From contig CAIIXF020000009.1 of the NCBI GenBank assembly GCA_903813345.2, forward strand, positions 25,394,740 to 25,458,739: a stretch of 64,000 bases of DNA, read 5' to 3'. The first letter of the stretch is position 1, and the number at the start of each line of letters is the position of its first letter. The DNA comes from Owenia fusiformis. Its lineage: Eukaryota > Annelida > Polychaeta > Sabellida > Oweniidae. The notes under the pieces are model-generated. The model had not been told where the DNA came from. It was given only the letters and a program-made list of their open reading frames with translations, and did no database searches. Shown here one piece after another: positions 3,101 to 15,100 of the stretch. Position numbers and translations under genes: made by a program.

Positions 3101-6100
3101 TGATTAATATAGTTTTGGGGGTTTAGTGCAATTTGTATTTTGCATTCAAGTGACATGAACCAGTTTTAAAGTGTAGAAATTGTAAAATGAATATTTGGAG
3201 TCTAAGTGGATCTTTAGATTAAAAGTTCAATGCAATTCTGTTTTATTTATTTCAGGCACATGGAAATACAGATGCTCCTAATGTTATCTCCCAAAATGAT
3301 GAGCCTCAAAACGATGACCAAAACAACGACATTGAATATAAACCTTTTCGACGTAGCAGCTCTTCCCCGAACGTCCAATCATTCTTCTCAACTTCAGTAG
3401 AAGCACAGATGAGTGTTGAAGATCGGGAAAGTACTTTGAGTGAGCTCAAACAATTTGCAGATAAAGAAATCAAAAGGCCGCAACCGAGAATGTTGAAACC
3501 AACATTGGGAAGCCCATTTCAACCAGTTCGCAAGCAAACTGAAAAAACTATTGACCCTAAGGTTACTACAAATGGACAAGCTGAATTTGAGCAGAGAGTA
3601 AGTTCAGATGTTAAGGTTGATAGGAAAGGGGATGTTGAAGTAGGAAAGGAAGTTGGTGCAGATTCGGTTCAATTTACTCTTCGCAATGAAGAAAAAAGTC
3701 AAGAAAATGGTCAGTTGGATAAAGAACAGAGACAAAATGGGAAAGATGCAATAAAGACTCGGAAGGGAGAAAACATTGAAAGCAAAGCTAAAGCTGACAG
3801 TACACTAGATTCTTTGGGTCAACCTAATTCTAAATCACAGCAGTCTTTAGGGATACCCTCATCAGAATCTAGGAATGTGACCAAGACCGACCTGGACTCA
3901 AGTTCACCTTTTCAAGCAAAGAATGTGATACCAAAAAATAGGACACCTGAACTTTCAAAGAATGTTTCTGAAATCGAACACTCTATAGATACTACAGCAA
4001 AATGTGATAAAGACAATGTAATGGATACAAACTCTAGCACTAGTAATGGACAAAATGCTATCAGCAGCTCTCAAAAGGAGTTAAATAAAACCAGGTTGCC
4101 AAGGTTACGCAATGACCTCATCCTTAGTGCTGATCATACGTCACATGACAGGGCTAACCACCTGGAAGGTTTGGCCAAAAATTCTGAAAATCTATCGAGA
4201 AATAGAGATAGTGTATCAAGGAGTAGAGGCCACACAATTTCAGTTATGCCTCAGACACCCGGGAAAGGCCCAGAGAGAACTGTTCTTGGGAGTAAGGATG
4301 CAGTTAAAAGTGGAATCAGTCCTAGTTTTGTGTTCCTTCAGTTGTATCATAGCTCTGAGTTTGGAAGTGAACTTGACAGACCAGTGCTATTATCTACCAC
4401 AGATGTATGTATTCTTTTCATATTATCAAATATATTGGATTTCAATCATAAGTTCAGATAGGCCCCTTTGCGTTTCGTTAACATTTCAGAAATAGATAGC
4501 TAAAAAGTAAAAACCAAAATCAAATCAAACCCAATGCAGTGATCTCCCCAGCATTAAAGCAAGTGGGTGTAGCACCCACCTGAGATTTTGATAGGCTTAG
4601 ATCCACCTGAAAATGTATTTGCACCCATTTAGAAATGAGAAAAATCATGAAAAATTGGCATAGTTTGACCAATTTTGGTCTGAATTGTGAAAATGACTAT
4701 TTTGCATCCACCTGAGAAAAAATCCTGGAGAGATCACTGCAATGCTATTTTGAATTGATTCATTAAAGAGATCGGGTCTCCTAAAAACACAATTAGAATA
4801 ACCCCCTGATTTTTTCGTGTTATTTGATCTAAAACAAGTTTGTTTATCAACTTATCAATTCTGAGGCTTGAATTAATTCATTAACAGTATCAATTCGATG
4901 CCATGAATTTCCACTTACATCAATAGAAATTCAAATAAAATTTAAAAAGCCCACTCAAATTTGTTCCAGTCTGATTGGCTTTTTCCTTCAGATTATTTTG
5001 GCTTAGAGAAGCCATATTTATTACTTCTAGGGGGTTACAATATAGATAAATCCCCAAAAAACATTGTATTCTGTTTTCGACTTATTGCGTTCAATTCTGT
5101 CAGTTGGTTGTTCTTTTGGTTGTCCTGTTGATATCCTCAATATATTGTCGATATCGTGCTTATGATTTGGTCTCAAGATATATCTAAGGTATATATGATG
5201 TTTTATGAGCAATTATATTGGGACATTACTGATTGTCCAGAATAGAAATCTGGATGACTCGATCTCTTTAAACATTTGACTCATACACATAGAGCATGTA
5301 CATGTACACTATATACACATGAACATATTGATAATTTGGTCACAGTGTTACATAAAAACAGAATATATGCAATACTTCATTGACCTATACACTCATTCCT
5401 ATACAGATTTTTAAAATGTCTGTTTAGGTCCAGTTGAACCGCACTATTAAGAATCTCGACCGTATTTACCCATACAACACTCACAAGATTGGAGTCTTGT
5501 ATGTGGGACCTGATCAGGTATGTAGGCCTTATGGTTTGGTTATATCTTAGGTTTAGGGATCAGTTCAATATTTCAATAATATATTCCACTAGATTTATAA
5601 TTGACCCCCTCCTCTGATTCAATTTCAATTACTTATTCCTTATTTAGCATAATTACAGAAAGAATATTTAAAAGTGATATCATTTCTGGTAATGTTTATT
5701 ATGAATATTTTATATTGTTGATGGACGATATTGAATTAGTTCTTTAAGCAAAATATACTTTAATTTAATTACTTGCTATAAAATGCTTGTGTGATTTACA
5801 TAATATTTAGTTTATACTTCAAGTCATCATTTAATTAACAGCTGCAGGCTTAATCTTAAATGGAAATTCTAGGTAAAAAATGTGAACATTTTCCCATTGG
5901 CCACATGTATACCTCTCGGGATATTTCCAACATTGTTATGAACACATTTTACAGGTGAATGACGAAATTGCGATTTTATCAAACCAATGTGGTTGTGGTT
6001 CCACGAGATATGGTCAGTTTCTTGCAAGTCTCGGCCAACTATTGCGTCTGGAAGATTGCAATCCAGAGTTCACATACACCGGGGGTCTTGACACTAGAGA

Positions 6101-9100
6101 TGGCAAAGATGGACAGTTTGCATACAGTTGGCAGGATGATATCATGCAAGGTATGTATATGAGAGTTATCTAATGGCAGGCTTTAGATATCAGGTTTATC
6201 CTGATAAAAATATAAATCTAGTACTGTCTACACCCTGTATACACTGCAGATTAAGTGAAAACATGTTTCTGGTGAGGAAGATGTAGGTATAGAACAGATG
6301 TAATAAATGTATGTTTCATTTTTGGCTGAATATAGCCATTAACCTCAAAGAATACCCAGAATGACAGATATTTATGTCACATATAAATCCCTTGAATACC
6401 CAAAGCAATTTACCTGTCACTGTGACAGAACCCCATTTTTCATAAATAGCTTTTATCCAATCTTGGATAAGTGAATTACGACAACAGCTTCGTTTCGGTA
6501 ACAAAATGGAACAGCGGTCGTATGGAAAATTCTATAAATATTTATTTTTCAATGTGTGTAAGAGACTGGCATTCAGATGACTTAGGCGATTGGCATTCAA
6601 ATGTCTTTAATGTATATGTGTTGCACAATTTTCTTTTAATTTCTACATATTTATATATTGTGAATACCCATGATTTTGATGTAAAGTGTAATATAGTAAT
6701 TTGATTGTGTGAGAGCCATATCAACAGAAGTCCCTATCCTAACATTTATGGGTTGTTTTAGATTGCATGAATATTATTTGGAACATTTCTATAAAAATGT
6801 ACATCTGATTTGTGTCATTGATTACTTCAGGATGACATACTGTATTTCGTCATGCTAATCATGTCAGAAACACATTGGTATAAGAATAACGTTGATTAGA
6901 CATCAGGCCACCGAGGTATGATTACTTCATTGCATGCTTCCTATATGCCATGGCCAGAAATGTTCAACTTTGCAATTTTAGTTTTTGGAAAATGTCATTT
7001 CTAGTACTGTAAATGATAAAACCATAAAAATGGAATTTTTTATAGAATCGATATTTGTTATATTGTTATATTGAGGACAAGGTCAGAGGATATTGATATT
7101 GCTATCTCTCTTGAGAGCCACCTGGTGATGAAACATCCTGCATCAGCATCCCATTGAACATCATTTAGGGGGATATAGACTCATTTGTGTGCCCATCTGC
7201 CTGGATGATAACTCAAATACTGATGGCCACATTTTGTTTACATTTTCTCCTGAGCAGATTTTCAAACTATACGTTTCCAAATTATAGCTATTTACGAGGG
7301 TTGTCCCAGAAGTAATGCACTATATGCTCTAACTTTATCAATAATTGATATTTTTCCATGAAATTTTCAGTAAATGTTCCTTAGAGACATTTTTTTTATA
7401 CTAGAAATTTTCATGTTGAAAACTATATTGATGTTATAATAAAATCAAGTTGGTGAGTTTGGGTAGGGTGGGGCAGGTTATACAGTCACGTCAAAAAGAA
7501 TAAAAAATTGAAAATCTGATATAATTAATCAACAAATACCATTTGGTGTAGCTATGAGAAGTATGCTCAAAAATACATTTAAAGATACTAAATTACTATG
7601 AGCACATCCTAGACTTAATGGATGTATATTGCACAGTGTCCCATTTCACATTTTCTCAAAATATTGCCCTTTGCATGTTATGTACTTTTGATGCCTGTCA
7701 GGTCAAACACTCTAGGCAATTTCTTCCACTGTGACTTGTGGAGTTTTTGCCTCCCATGTTTGGAGTTGTCATACAGGGTCAAATCGTCTCTTTTAAATCT
7801 CTTCTGCCACCCCATAATTGTAGTTCTATCTGGAATATACTCCTTATATACTTTCTTCATGGTAGCATTGTTTTGCGTGGCTGTGAGTCCAAGTGAAGTA
7901 TGAAATTAGGCCACCAAACGCAAGGCCTTCTGTTATCAGGTGAGAATTGCAGCAATTTTGCAATTTCTTGACTGTGACTGTATTTGAATTTGTGACTATT
8001 GAAATGTGGTATTATGACATCACAGTGCTAAATGTCATTATTCGTACTTGATTAACATCATGCTGAATAAATTTAACAATTTCCCAAACATTTTGGCCAT
8101 TTAAAGGAAAGAAATATTAATAAAATAACACTTTAGATATTTTCATAATTAGAAAAATTGGTACCTGCCCCGCCTACCCCTACCCCCATGTTGTTATAGC
8201 AACCATATTAAGACTTAATATTAATGTTGGATGCTGGAACTTCAGGATATAATAGATAAAACTTCAATTGTTATATACACAAAATTTCAGCTGAATTGAA
8301 GAATATTAAAGAAAGTTAGAGCATATAGTGCATTACTTCTGGGACAACCCTCGTAAGTACAGATTTTACTTTTATGAGAACATAAAATTGTGATGTTATT
8401 TTGATAATTATATTGATCATATTGGAACCCTCCAAAACTTTTTTTTTTTGAATCAATCAGGTGAGATTTTTTGAGATTTTGTTGATACTCTAAATCTGTT
8501 GTTTCTCAGAAGCATATGTTATTGAAAAACATCTTTATTTTCTTGTTGAAGCTAGAAAACATGGGAAATTGCTGTCAACACCAGGCATCAACCTCAATCA
8601 GCTAGTAATCTATGTATATAAATAAAACAAAGTTCTCAGAAATCAGACAGTACAAATGTAATTAAATATCTACCTTATACTATATTTGCAACAAGGAAGT
8701 TGCTTATTGGCTATTTACTACCGATAGCATTCCTTTGTTTACTTTCCTTATCTATTTAATGTATTTATAAGTAATTGAACAAGAGTGATAGCATAAGCAG
8801 ATTTATCTGTTAGCAATTTACTGACCCCCTTCCATTCTTCCTACCGCAAACAAATACATATATTTTCATTTTGAATCTCACAGTAAAGTTAGGTTTTGTC
8901 AAGTTAAAACATATTATTATTTCCTGATTATCATATTGCTGTTTCTACTTTCTTTTTTAATTTTGTAGCCTTGAGTCTAATAGAATTTGAATATACTGGT
9001 GATTTGTCTTTCTTCATGTTGCTCTTTGTCCTTTTACCTTGTACATTTACTGTAATCTACACCAGGATAAACAAAGACTTGTTACCCTGTTTTGTCAGAA

Positions 9101-12100
9101 GTCCTTGAGGATATTGATAACATTTTAAATCTAATGAGACCCTTCAAAAAGCAGCAGTAAATCATTATCTCACATTCACCTTATAGTCCTTATGAAAGTC
9201 TAGTGGAGTTGCTCTCATTCTACAAGGTTTTGTTGCTTTTCACTGAAATGTGCCAATGGCAGATTTGTGAATTCGAAACAAGGAAGATTTTCAATTTAGA
9301 AATGGTTCTCAAACTTCCAACCAGATTGTATAAATACCAGAACCATTGGATGGTCTTCACCAGATCACCCTCTGAATCTAACAAAGGACAAGCTTTAACG
9401 AAGCATTCAACACTTAGAGACTCATCTCCCTCACAAGAAAGGTAAGAAACTTATGATTACCAAATAGTACATCGATTTTAAATTGGATATGTGCTTTAGT
9501 TAAACATGTACTTTAGAACATTTAAGCATAAGAGAAGTCAGTCATTAGATTTGTATTTGAATGATGCTGTTCAGAAGGCACGAGGAGCAATATTTGAAAA
9601 TAATTATCAAATCTTGTGTTCTCTCTCCACAAGCATTTCCACTAAAATAGGAAAATATGTAAGCACAAGCTGGTTTTTATAAAGGACTGTTTTTGTAAAT
9701 GTCAATAATATATTTTGCATCAGTTGTATCTTATTTGTATCTTTCTTCCAGAAATTCAGTATGAAGGTTGCTGTCATTTTCCTCACTCTTGCTTTCGTTG
9801 CTACAATGCAGCTCAGCGATGCTTGGAGAATTCGTCTTCCTCGCCTTGGCCTGCGTAGGATCATTGCTCCTATTTGCAATCAAATCTGCAACGTTAAGTG
9901 CACAGTTCCTGGTATATGTGCTCCAGTCTGCAATAAGGTCTGCAATATTGGCCGTAAACGCCGTGCTGTTGCAAACGACGATGGGGAAAAGCCTTTCTCA
10001 GCTGATTACTACAAGTATGACATGAACAATGATGATATCATTACTCTGTCAGAATTCGCAATTGCAATCTCATCCACCCCTGCTAAATGCGTTGAGATCT
10101 TTGGAATGGCTGATTTAAATGGTGAGTTCAGAAACCATATACAGGGTGTCAAATAAGTCTGTTCTCCCCCTGAACTTTTTTTTTAATTTTTTAATTGAAA
10201 GATAAAAAAATTAAGGGGGGAGAACAGACTTATTTGACACCCTGTATATTGATTTAATAATAATCCCTGTAAAGTATGCAATTCTTTTTGTCAGTGTGTT
10301 TTGGGAAATAAGATATGTATGAAAGAATAAACATATAAAATACTTAGAAAACACAAAATCAAACTGTATGTGTATGTCAAGGGTCTGATTTTATTTTCTG
10401 GTCTAAAATGAATAAAAATTGTGCATATAGTTAACTGTTATTTCAAGAACAATTATTTTGTGTGCTTCAGATGATGGTGTATTAGATATGAGTGAATTCC
10501 TTCGTGGACCATTTCAATTTGGTGGAAAAATGGAAGATTATATATCCCAGGAATCATCAGAAGAGGTTGGTAGCCAATCAGATGAGTCAGATGAATTTGA
10601 GGATTCAGAGGAGATCACAACTACCCAGAAGGCAACTTTCACACAGGACATCACTACCCAGGAAACTTTGACCACCAAACAATAAGCATTATGAATCTCA
10701 TTGCTATATAGAAATAGCATTGTTTGATCTCAACTGGACATTATGGCTCTTTACAAGCCTTTATACTCATGAAATAAACAATAAATTTTGTTAAAGTGCT
10801 ATTTAGAAGTACTCATTTAGTATATCTTATTTGATTATTAACATATACTTAAGTGATACTAAAGTGAGACATACCAAATGTGACTATTTTATAAATTATT
10901 AATTTATCTACATTTGTATTGTTGCAATCAACATTGATAAAGTAGTGTTGTTTTCTATGAATGATCTAGTTAAAAGAGAAAAGTGCTGCATTTTAATGCA
11001 TTATAAGCAGATTCTTTTGAGAACTGGGTAATTTATATATCCACTATTTTATTGATTGAAAATTGTATTATTGCTGAATAAAAATAAATTAAGTAGAAGT
11101 TAGAGTAACGGAACCTGATACTTTCTGTTTAGTCTTTATATATTCAGATAAAAGCAAAGTAAATGAATTAATGGCTTTAAAACACTACAATAGATTTGTT
11201 TATATCTAAGCACTCTGAAGCGTAATTTATGAATAGGACCTAACATCCCCTCCCCTTATTTGACAAAGGCAGCTTTAGGCTCACTGGCTTATTAGATCTT
11301 CTAGTAAAGTAGCATTTGTGTAATAACAATGAAGTGAATGTGATTAACAGTTACACTTTCTATGTAATATCCCTTAAAAGGATTGATAGTGCCATAATTA
11401 CTTGAAACTCGAGTCCATTTTTATTAATGCTTGACAGGGGACTTAGATAAACTTGACTTTCCTTGCTATATATAACCAGATACTGAGAGTCAAACTAATG
11501 CATAATTGTTGCCATAATCACACAATAATCCACCAAACTGAATTGACTTTTTACATCAGCCCTTAGCATAGGATTAAAGTGATCCTTATTTTGATAACAG
11601 CCCCACCCCCACAAAAAAAACAATTTTGTAAAATTTGTTGGAAAAACATTAACAAATTATAGTTTGAAATGCTTAGAATGCACCATACCCTATAATGTAA
11701 ATTTTAAAAAATTTCCTGGGGTCAAGCCCCCTTTTGGAGCTGGCTTTGCTCGCAGTGATGCAAACCCAAAACATGCACCCCTATGCCCCTGATTAGTGTA
11801 AAGATATTGTCATTGTCATGGAAAAGTTATGTCAGATAAATTTCATATGAGCTCCAATGACACATGTTTCCATGATCTGAAAATATCAAACTAAACCTTA
11901 CGTACTAGATCTTACCAATAGCATTTGATTCATTGATTTTTCAGTGAACCGTTACAATGTTGATGACTGTTGACTGCTTCAATATTAGTCAGCAAATTTT
12001 TCATAGTTTACAGTCTCGTTATATGATTTCCCAGTTGACATCTAAAGAGATTGGGAAATTTCAATTGTTGCATCGCAGAAAATTATATTTTCAAGAATTC

Positions 12101-15100
12101 AAATGGGTGTACAATCTGTTTTCAGCAAATATTTTTGCATGGGAAAATAAAAATTGATTTTGATTCTTTTTAGTGGTTTTCCATGTGGCTACACTGATGC
12201 CCAGGAAAGATTCTGACACAAAATGTGTAGGGAAGAAGTTACACATTGGGAATGATTATGTCACTATTGTGTACAACAATAGTCAGGAAAGCTACCAGAT
12301 TGGTACAATTAAGGTAAGTCAACCCACATGGTATCCATAGTGCCAAACATGTTTTTAAATAAAACAACAATTTGTTTGCTTATATTTATTTTGAACAAAA
12401 TTACAATACTTGTGCTGGTTGTTTAGTTAGAGATATACTAAAAGCTCTAATTTGGAATATTACTCAAATGTCCCTCAAAATGATCACTATACCTTAATAA
12501 TTATACCATTACTTGAAGTTCCACTGTCTGCTTGATTTGGTCATCTCAATGTCCTAGTTTTGAAGGCTGATGGTGCTGATGTGAAGCCCAGTTTTCATTG
12601 AATATGAGTGATAGGAATTGCCTCTTTACAAGATTTCCTATATGTAAAGCTAGCAAGATAAAATCAGTTGTTGACGTGAATGTATTTATATTAGTTTACA
12701 CTTCATATCTAACTGTCCATTCTTTCAAATGTAACATGTATTTTAAACATTTCCATTGAGATATGTTATATCTCTTGTTTCTCTTGTTTTCTTGTGATAT
12801 TTTGTGTTCTATTCAGTTATACATTTTCCATTTTAGGGTCAGTTTAACTATGTTAACATAGTAATTCAACCACTGGACCATGCAAGCAATGCAGTCACTG
12901 TACAAACAGCTCAAGGTGAGTACAATATGCAATTCAATCCAATAGAAATATATTATCTAAAGATAAATGTACAAATATATCACAATGATATAAGGTGCAA
13001 AGGTGCATATAGCTGCGTGTCTTTGCATGCAGTTAGACCTGATTTGACTTGTGCTGTTATGTACTGTCCTTTGTCAGGCTAGATTATTGATTTTTGTCAA
13101 GCTTTCTATATCAGATGGGTGTGGCTGTGGCAGCATTCTAAATCAAAAATAATAGTCTGTAATCATGTCATGTTGAATTTTGTCAATAGGGTTGAGCAGG
13201 GAAATTTGAAACAGCACATGCAATGACAATGTCAATCATGCATCTGCATGAAATTTGTTGGAAGCTAATTATGATCCAATACAAAGTTATTGAAAAAGGC
13301 ACAAACATCCTACACTCGGACTGATCGTTTATAACTTTTGAACTTATTTTAATAAAAGCTTCTAATAATTATCCCGGATTGTCTTAATACTGTACCAATA
13401 TTTTTTTACTTCAAACAAGTATGTCCAAGTTATTTAATTTTTAGGACATAATTGAAAATATCTCTTGTCAATAGATGAGCCATAGCATAATGATTTCACC
13501 AGAATATTAAAATTTAGTAACTGGACAATTATCAACTAAACAAGATTGTTTGAAAGCTTATTTCACAAAATGTAAGAAAATTGATCAAAAATAATTTATT
13601 TTGCATTGTTCTTATTTCCAATGAAATCCCATTGACTGCTCCGCCCCATTGACAATTAGGTAATGACATTCCGTTATGACATGTTATAGATAAATATGGA
13701 CTTTTTCATTAATTCTGAATTTATATTATTGAGTGTTACACACACGAGGAACAATTTCCCCATTTAAATGGGTCTGCTGTCTGACTGATAATGAGAATAT
13801 TTAAGGAACATTTCCGGTTTATTATTTATCTGGAGTATGTACAAACTATCCTAAAAATGAGAATAAACTCACATATACAAAATTTATCCGACAATGTGAT
13901 TCATGACATCTCAATCTCTCTCTTTCTCTCGAAGGGAGTTTTCTGTTTTCCTTCTGCCTTCATATGGATCATTCATTTGACCTTCTGCCACACATTAGTG
14001 CCCAAAACACATGAACAATGTACACCAGCATATGAACTAATGGGATCAAAGACAGTCCAAGTATAATGACCAGGTTCAATGCAACATCCATAACAAGTGC
14101 ATTTGCTGTGTATGCAGCGCTTTCCACAATTCTTGTCATTTCAAATGAATTAAACTTAATGTTTACTTTGAGGAAATTCTCGAGGATCAAATCTTTCTCC
14201 AGGCTAGTATCGTTGTAGTCACCTGTAGTTACATTTGCGTAGTTCCTTGTCAGTTCCATCAGAGATTTAACAGCGACATTGCCCTCGAGAGTGGTCTTCA
14301 AAAATTTCTTGAAATGGTTCTTGTGTGGCCAAGGAGTCTGTCTGACTGTGGATGAGTATGTCGTTTCTGAACATGGTGCCATGCAGTCACATCCGGTATC
14401 ATTATGTCCTTCATTTAAGATATCCTTCTCGCATTGCAATCTTTTGAGTCCTTTTTTGAATGAGTCAATGTTATCTGTATCAAAGGATCCGCAATATTCT
14501 GTCGCATCTGAATTGCTAGGAATTGGGGCAAAGGGGGATAGACATGTGCATTGCTCTTTAAAATGTTTTTGCAAACATTCATTCTTGCAAGCATCGTGAT
14601 TCTGATTCATTGAGTCCTGGCACATACCATAAGGGGCAGGAAGTCGAAGATTATGAGACACAGATAGCCCTATGTTGAATTGATTTCCAGGAGATAGGTC
14701 TAGTCCCTTGTCAAGTAGAGTTTTTATGTCCTTATCATGTATGACCATTTTTACACCATTTGTTGCATCAGTAGACTCCATCGAAAAGTCAAGAGCATCA
14801 TCTCCGGGGATATATGAATTGGTGAATATGACAAGAGATAGTCCTTCATGAATTGCATGCCCACTGTCATTGCTTTGTTTCGTCCCATTAAACATAAAAC
14901 AGTTTCCATATCGTGGATGTTTGAATATGTCAAAGTTGTTCATATCACAATTTTCTCCATCAAGAGAACAATGGATGATTTCATCATCAAGTTGGTGATA
15001 TAGGGCATCGTTTCCTGGGTCGCTTTGGAGGTTTTCATTCATGAATTCCTGTGACAAAAGTCGCTCTTTGAACTCAAGGATATCATCTTGTATAGATTGA

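Follow-up and report, generated by a model that had tools for sequence, protein, structure and literature searches.

The locus

The window, that is the whole stretch of 64,000 nucleotides of Owenia fusiformis DNA analysed here, carries a small gene lying inside an intron of TSC2. The two TSC2 exons flanking this intron encode the two halves of a Rap_GAP domain (5973-6158 and 12167-12313), which are on the same strand and contiguous in the profile; the small gene thus sits within a single TSC2 intron, which is about 6 kb long. The upstream exon is bounded in the sequence by an AG acceptor (5953-5954) and a GT donor (6151-6152), and a profile search places the Tuberin domain of TSC2 directly upstream of the window, again on the same strand.

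The nested gene consists of three exons on the forward strand, the in silico splicing of which yields a 191-residue product (Table 1). Its first exon ends at a splice donor (9441/GTAAGA) whose position and sequence are common to five of the paralogues described below. The product combines a predicted signal peptide, six cysteines at positions 39, 43, 47, 53, 57 and 61 with mirror-symmetric spacing in the window copy (C-x3-C-x3-C-x5-C-x3-C-x3-C), a GRKRR motif, two 12-residue EF-hand loops whose acidic ligands predict calcium binding, and an acidic tail. The three-exon organization on the TSC2 strand had been proposed in an initial annotation, and it was borne out at essentially every coordinate, including the splice junctions; the split Rap_GAP domain and the Tuberin domain upstream confirm the TSC2 host. 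The TATA box, 5'-UTR exon and AATAAA signals that it attributed to the gene are indeed present, the first two recurring in five other copies, and all the protein features that it listed were found in the product. The EF-hand assignment is further supported by a profile search, in which the second EF-hand scores above the Pfam EF-hand_1 cut-off.

Table 1. Coordinates of the nested gene, its product and the host exons within the window.
Feature	Position	Strand	Remarks
TSC2 exon preceding host intron, with first half of Rap_GAP domain	5955..6150	+	Rap_GAP profile 1-59 at 5973-6158
TATA box of nested gene	9329..9336	+	TATAAATA; recurs with similar downstream sequence in five paralogues
Untranslated exon 1	9359..9441	+	Putative start about 30 nt past TATA box; end at splice donor
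Exon 2	9752..10121	+	CDS from ATG 9761; exon and phase alike in 7 paralogues
Signal peptide, aa 1-21 (SDA/W)	9761..9823	+	Predicted by reading the sequence; SDAW invariant in all intact copies
Cationic six-Cys hairpin peptide (predicted), aa 22-64	9824..9952	+	Net charge +7, pI 9.8
GRKRR, aa 64-68, furin-type site and Gly amidation donor (predicted)	9950..9964	+	Identical in all seven intact copies
EF-hand loop 1, aa 87-98	10019..10054	+	Translation, Pfam
Cys110, odd cysteine of EF-hand part	10088..10090	+	Invariant in intact copies, also in diverged L018
EF-hand loop 2, aa 118-129	10112..10496, split by intron 2	+	Translation, Pfam
Intron 2	10122-10470	+	Interrupts EF-hand loop 2
Exon 3, coding part	10471..10685	+	Stop codon ends at 10685
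Acidic Ser/Thr/Glu-rich tail, about aa 138-191	10522-10685	+	Only in window copy and C3 fragment
Two AATAAA polyadenylation signals	10773..10785 (at 10773, 10780)	+	Read in the sequence
Next TSC2 exon, downstream flank of host intron	12167..12313	+	Rap_GAP profile 55-105; translation HVATLMP...

Two side features deserve mention. Cys110 is a seventh cysteine, omitted from the initial annotation; it is presumed to be unpaired, and the part of the precursor following GRKRR could dimerise through it. Intron 2 contains, at 10137-10249, a TA-flanked element of about 110 bp with a near-perfect terminal inverted repeat (ATACAGGGTGTCAAATAAGTCTGTTCTCCCC at one end, mirrored at the other), which looks like a small mariner-type MITE.

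A dispersed gene family

The same genome (498 Mb, about 33-34% G+C), which comprises twelve large contigs (35-62 Mb for those measured) and a 13th of 0.66 Mb, was searched with protein and DNA queries. Six further intact copies were retrieved on five other chromosomes, two on contig C1 and one each on C12, C7, C6 and C10, which brings the intact copies to seven with the window gene, together with one diverged copy (L018) and one fragment (L017). In silico splicing places an intron at the same point within the second EF-hand loop in the intact and diverged copies. A TATA box and an untranslated first exon are common to six of the seven intact copies; in five paralogues the TATA box lies at -437, -389, -378, -396 and -386 from the ATG and precedes a similar exon with its donor. 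Neither element could be recognised in two copies, L013 and the diverged L018. Since introns and promoter have been retained, the copies dispersed through DNA duplication and not through retroposition. Only recent pairs are resolved in a tree of the coding part.

The diverged paralogue (G000:C12:10390935-10391534), 8 kb from the intact C12 copy, has lost both the six-Cys framework and RKRR, while signal peptide, EF-hands and odd cysteine are retained. This joint loss fits with the framework and the cleavage site forming one functional unit. The fragment (G000:C3:16241983-16242476) comprises exon 3, its 3' flank and the last 36 bp of exon 2; the Cys part and the rest of exon 2 were not found there, as far as seen, and it is probably a pseudogene. 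In exon 3 no other copy is as close to the window gene, with which it has the Ser/Thr tail and the 3' flank in common (76% over 530 bp). The Ser/Thr/Glu-rich tail has no counterpart in the other intact copies and was thus probably added in the lineage of these two. A weak EF-hand match on C6 (L040, E 0.009) was not counted as a family member, since the EF-hand protein encoded there shows no Cys hairpin within its open frame.

The nested gene is a real gene. It is more than a chance arrangement because the Cys spacing, GRKRR, the intron phases and the frame have all been retained in six other intact copies despite near-saturated synonymous sites, and because the TATA box and 5'-UTR exon with its donor recur in five of them. 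Its location inside a TSC2 intron, on the TSC2 strand, could suggest that there is no independent gene at all, but TSC2 cassette exons or a decayed duplicate. Such a reading is hardly credible in view of a TATA box and a 5' exon that are also conserved in paralogues at other loci, of a start codon, signal peptide and polyadenylation signals of its own, and of an intact open reading frame under purifying selection. This is a genuine, hitherto unclassified family of secreted-peptide genes, one member of which is nested; the order of parts in its products is not unprecedented. The nested gene may already be included, unnamed, in the published gene set.

Conservation, charge and fold

Selection was estimated by the Nei-Gojobori method from pooled pairs of the seven intact copies. 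Upstream of the tail, synonymous sites are close to saturated, with 0.54-0.65 differences per site, and the dN/dS values, rough since the segments are short, are lowest in the segment comprising the cysteines and GRKRR (0.075), followed by the basic arm (0.10), the EF-hand pair (0.18) and the signal peptide (0.20). The seven intact copies agree without exception in the six cysteines, in Cys110, in GRKRR and, for both EF-hand loops, in the first and last ligands; 35 of the 47 positions of the mature peptide are likewise invariant among paralogues. A charge asymmetry is observed throughout the intact copies: residues W22 to G64 bear +7 to +10 (pI 9.7-11.2), and the part following RKRR -11 to -22 (pI 4.1).

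RKRR is followed by Ala or Ser in all seven intact copies, which fits the substrate pattern of furin-type convertases (R-X-K/R-R, then a small residue) and predicts cleavage. One might nevertheless consider that the protein is secreted without being cut and binds calcium in mucus, tube or extracellular matrix, anchored to polyanions by its cationic hairpin. EF-hands are indeed present in all copies, the Ser/Thr/Glu-rich tail of the window copy is suggestive of a glycosylated or matrix protein, and the conserved odd Cys110 could dimerise it. We nevertheless regard this as quite unlikely, since the conservation of GRKRR in 7/7 copies at near-saturated synonymous change is hard to explain without cleavage, and since the Ser/Thr tail is restricted to the window copy and the C3 fragment. 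The furin-type site recognised in the initial annotation is upheld, and the release of a separate Cys-rich peptide, also put forward there, is the best reading of this invariance, as a prediction.

The i, i+4, i+8 spacing puts three cysteines on one face of each of two predicted helices, which makes nested pairing (C39-C61, C43-C57, C47-C53) the natural inference. The Arg-rich arm is amphipathic, with a helical hydrophobic moment of 0.78 over an 11-residue stretch. AlphaFold2, applied to the mature-peptide alignment, returned a helix (9-25), a loop and a second helix (32-44) at low confidence (pLDDT 57, pTM 0.26), and confidence was likewise low for a prediction from the exon-2 alignment. A helix-loop-helix fold of the mature peptide is plausible as a model; a Foldseek search with the low-confidence predicted peptide gave no match in the PDB.

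Proposed precursor processing and function

Furin-type convertases recognise RKRR when Ala or Ser comes next, and a Gly preceding basic residues serves as an amidation donor once these are trimmed. In the scheme that we propose, the signal peptide would be removed at SDA/W22, a furin-type convertase would cut after RKRR68, and Gly64, a putative amidation donor, would become accessible once the basic residues had been trimmed. The product would be a C-terminally amidated peptide of about 42 residues ending in CNI-NH2, in which the Arg-rich amphipathic arm would precede two short helices, presumably zipped by the three nested disulphides. The acidic EF-hand part would act as a pro-region that offsets the charge of the peptide, may fold with calcium in the secretory pathway, and would then be shed. 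We thus read the product from its sequence as a possible prepropeptide of the host-defence type, with a calcium-binding pro-region, and give this reading about an even chance of being right. The observations behind it are the gene, its family, the conservation, the charge asymmetry and the invariant cleavage site. The hairpin peptide may have antimicrobial or antifungal activity.

The defence function is favoured because of the charge, the Cys framework, the copy number and the parallel with mytimycins described below. Against it stands the fact that conservation is higher in the mature peptide than in the pro-region, while diversification is frequent in defence peptides; purifying selection nevertheless also acts on mytimycin cores (PMC8004829).

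The main rival is an amidated signalling peptide (hormone, neuropeptide or cytokine-like) released from an EF-hand pro-region, to which GRKRR, a classical amidation and convertase signal, and the high conservation of the mature peptide among paralogues would be well suited. There is also a precedent for the layout. NUCB2/nesfatin is a secreted precursor with dibasic sites, from which an N-terminal peptide is released, the EF-hands lying downstream (PMC9004410), and nesfatin has been described in oyster (PMC8398477). Nesfatin-1 is however an 82-residue peptide and NUCB carries a leucine zipper (PMC9004410), to be compared with the predicted peptide of about 42 residues in the window gene. The likeness is one of layout, a released N-terminal peptide with EF-hands downstream. 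To our knowledge, NUCB2/nesfatin has no Cys hairpin, and nucleobindin is absent among the Pfam and PDB sequence matches of the product at E<=10. Seven dispersed copies, a strong cationic charge and a hairpin framework would be more usual for a defence peptide, and nothing ties the family to a receptor or to nervous expression. We therefore hold a signalling role to be unlikely, though worth keeping in mind, and retain the host-defence prepropeptide as the preferred reading.

Comparison with known systems

Against Pfam and NCBIfam, the Cys segment gave only sub-threshold matches, to C_tripleX and Conotoxin_I2, which were taken as chance. The PDB sequence search returned generic EF-hand matches only, the Cys peptide alone giving one match (E 7.8), and no match was found in the phage and viral collections. 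No sequence homology to known antimicrobial peptides emerged from the Pfam, NCBIfam and PDB sequence searches. Identity with a venom toxin was considered and rejected, having no support.

The Cys spacing, simply termed symmetric in the initial annotation, corresponds to a published framework, that of the plant 6C alpha-hairpinins. These share the motif C-X3-C-X3-C-X4-20-C-X3-C-X3-C and a helix-loop-helix fold, a loop of X5 being rare among them (fewer than 10 of 1069; PMC11591084). The window gene, with its X5 loop, falls within this motif, and so do all seven intact copies. The precursors described in the passages of that source considered here consist of a signal peptide and hairpin modules, with no mention of an EF-hand part, in contrast to the window gene. 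Hairpin Loop Peptides of fungi and insects are also secreted, with six mirror-symmetric cysteines, three nested disulphides and two helices (PMC13357843). The window peptide resembles them in its six mirror-symmetric cysteines and predicted secretion. It differs by its +7 charge and 5-residue loop, since Hairpin Loop Peptides are hydrophobic and almost uncharged, have a 15-residue loop and lack an EF-hand part. The combination of a 6C hairpin with an EF-hand pro-region was not met in a limited search of the open-access literature.

The initial annotation knew of no family with this order of parts, which proved wrong: mytimycin precursors share the order (PMC8004829, PMC7653742), and NUCB2/nesfatin has a similar layout (PMC9004410). 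In Mytilida mussels, the only group from which mytimycins are reported (PMC8004829), these precursors comprise a signal peptide, a cationic Cys-rich peptide of about 50 residues, a dibasic furin-like site and an acidic C-terminal extension with an EF-hand (PMC8004829); the same scheme is given in PMC7653742. Mytimycins are encoded by a multigene family in which the peptide core is under purifying selection and the dibasic site under negative selection (PMC8004829). Compared by description, the window gene agrees with them in the order of its parts, in charge polarity and in having a dibasic site. Mytimycins nevertheless have 10 invariant cysteines (10-14 in all) and an EF-hand motif, versus six cysteines in mirror spacing and two EF-hand loops here. 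The window gene is thus not a mytimycin, since it has six cysteines instead of ten invariant ones, yet the working plan is alike.

One speculative extension, which we consider improbable, is that the EF-hand pro-region works as a calcium switch. It would fold in a calcium-rich secretory granule, mask the cationic hairpin and help it to fold, then let go after secretion, so that the defence peptide would be latent and calcium-gated. Such a design would have arisen separately in mussels and in the annelid lineage of the window gene. If the proposed reading is right, the mirror hairpin with six cysteines, so far described in plants, fungi and insects, extends to a further animal group, a marine annelid. 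The pairing of a cationic, Cys-rich peptide with an EF-hand pro-region would then occur in a second animal lineage, whether through common descent or through convergence with mussel mytimycins, and the unexplained EF-hand of the mytimycin precursors would become testable through comparison.
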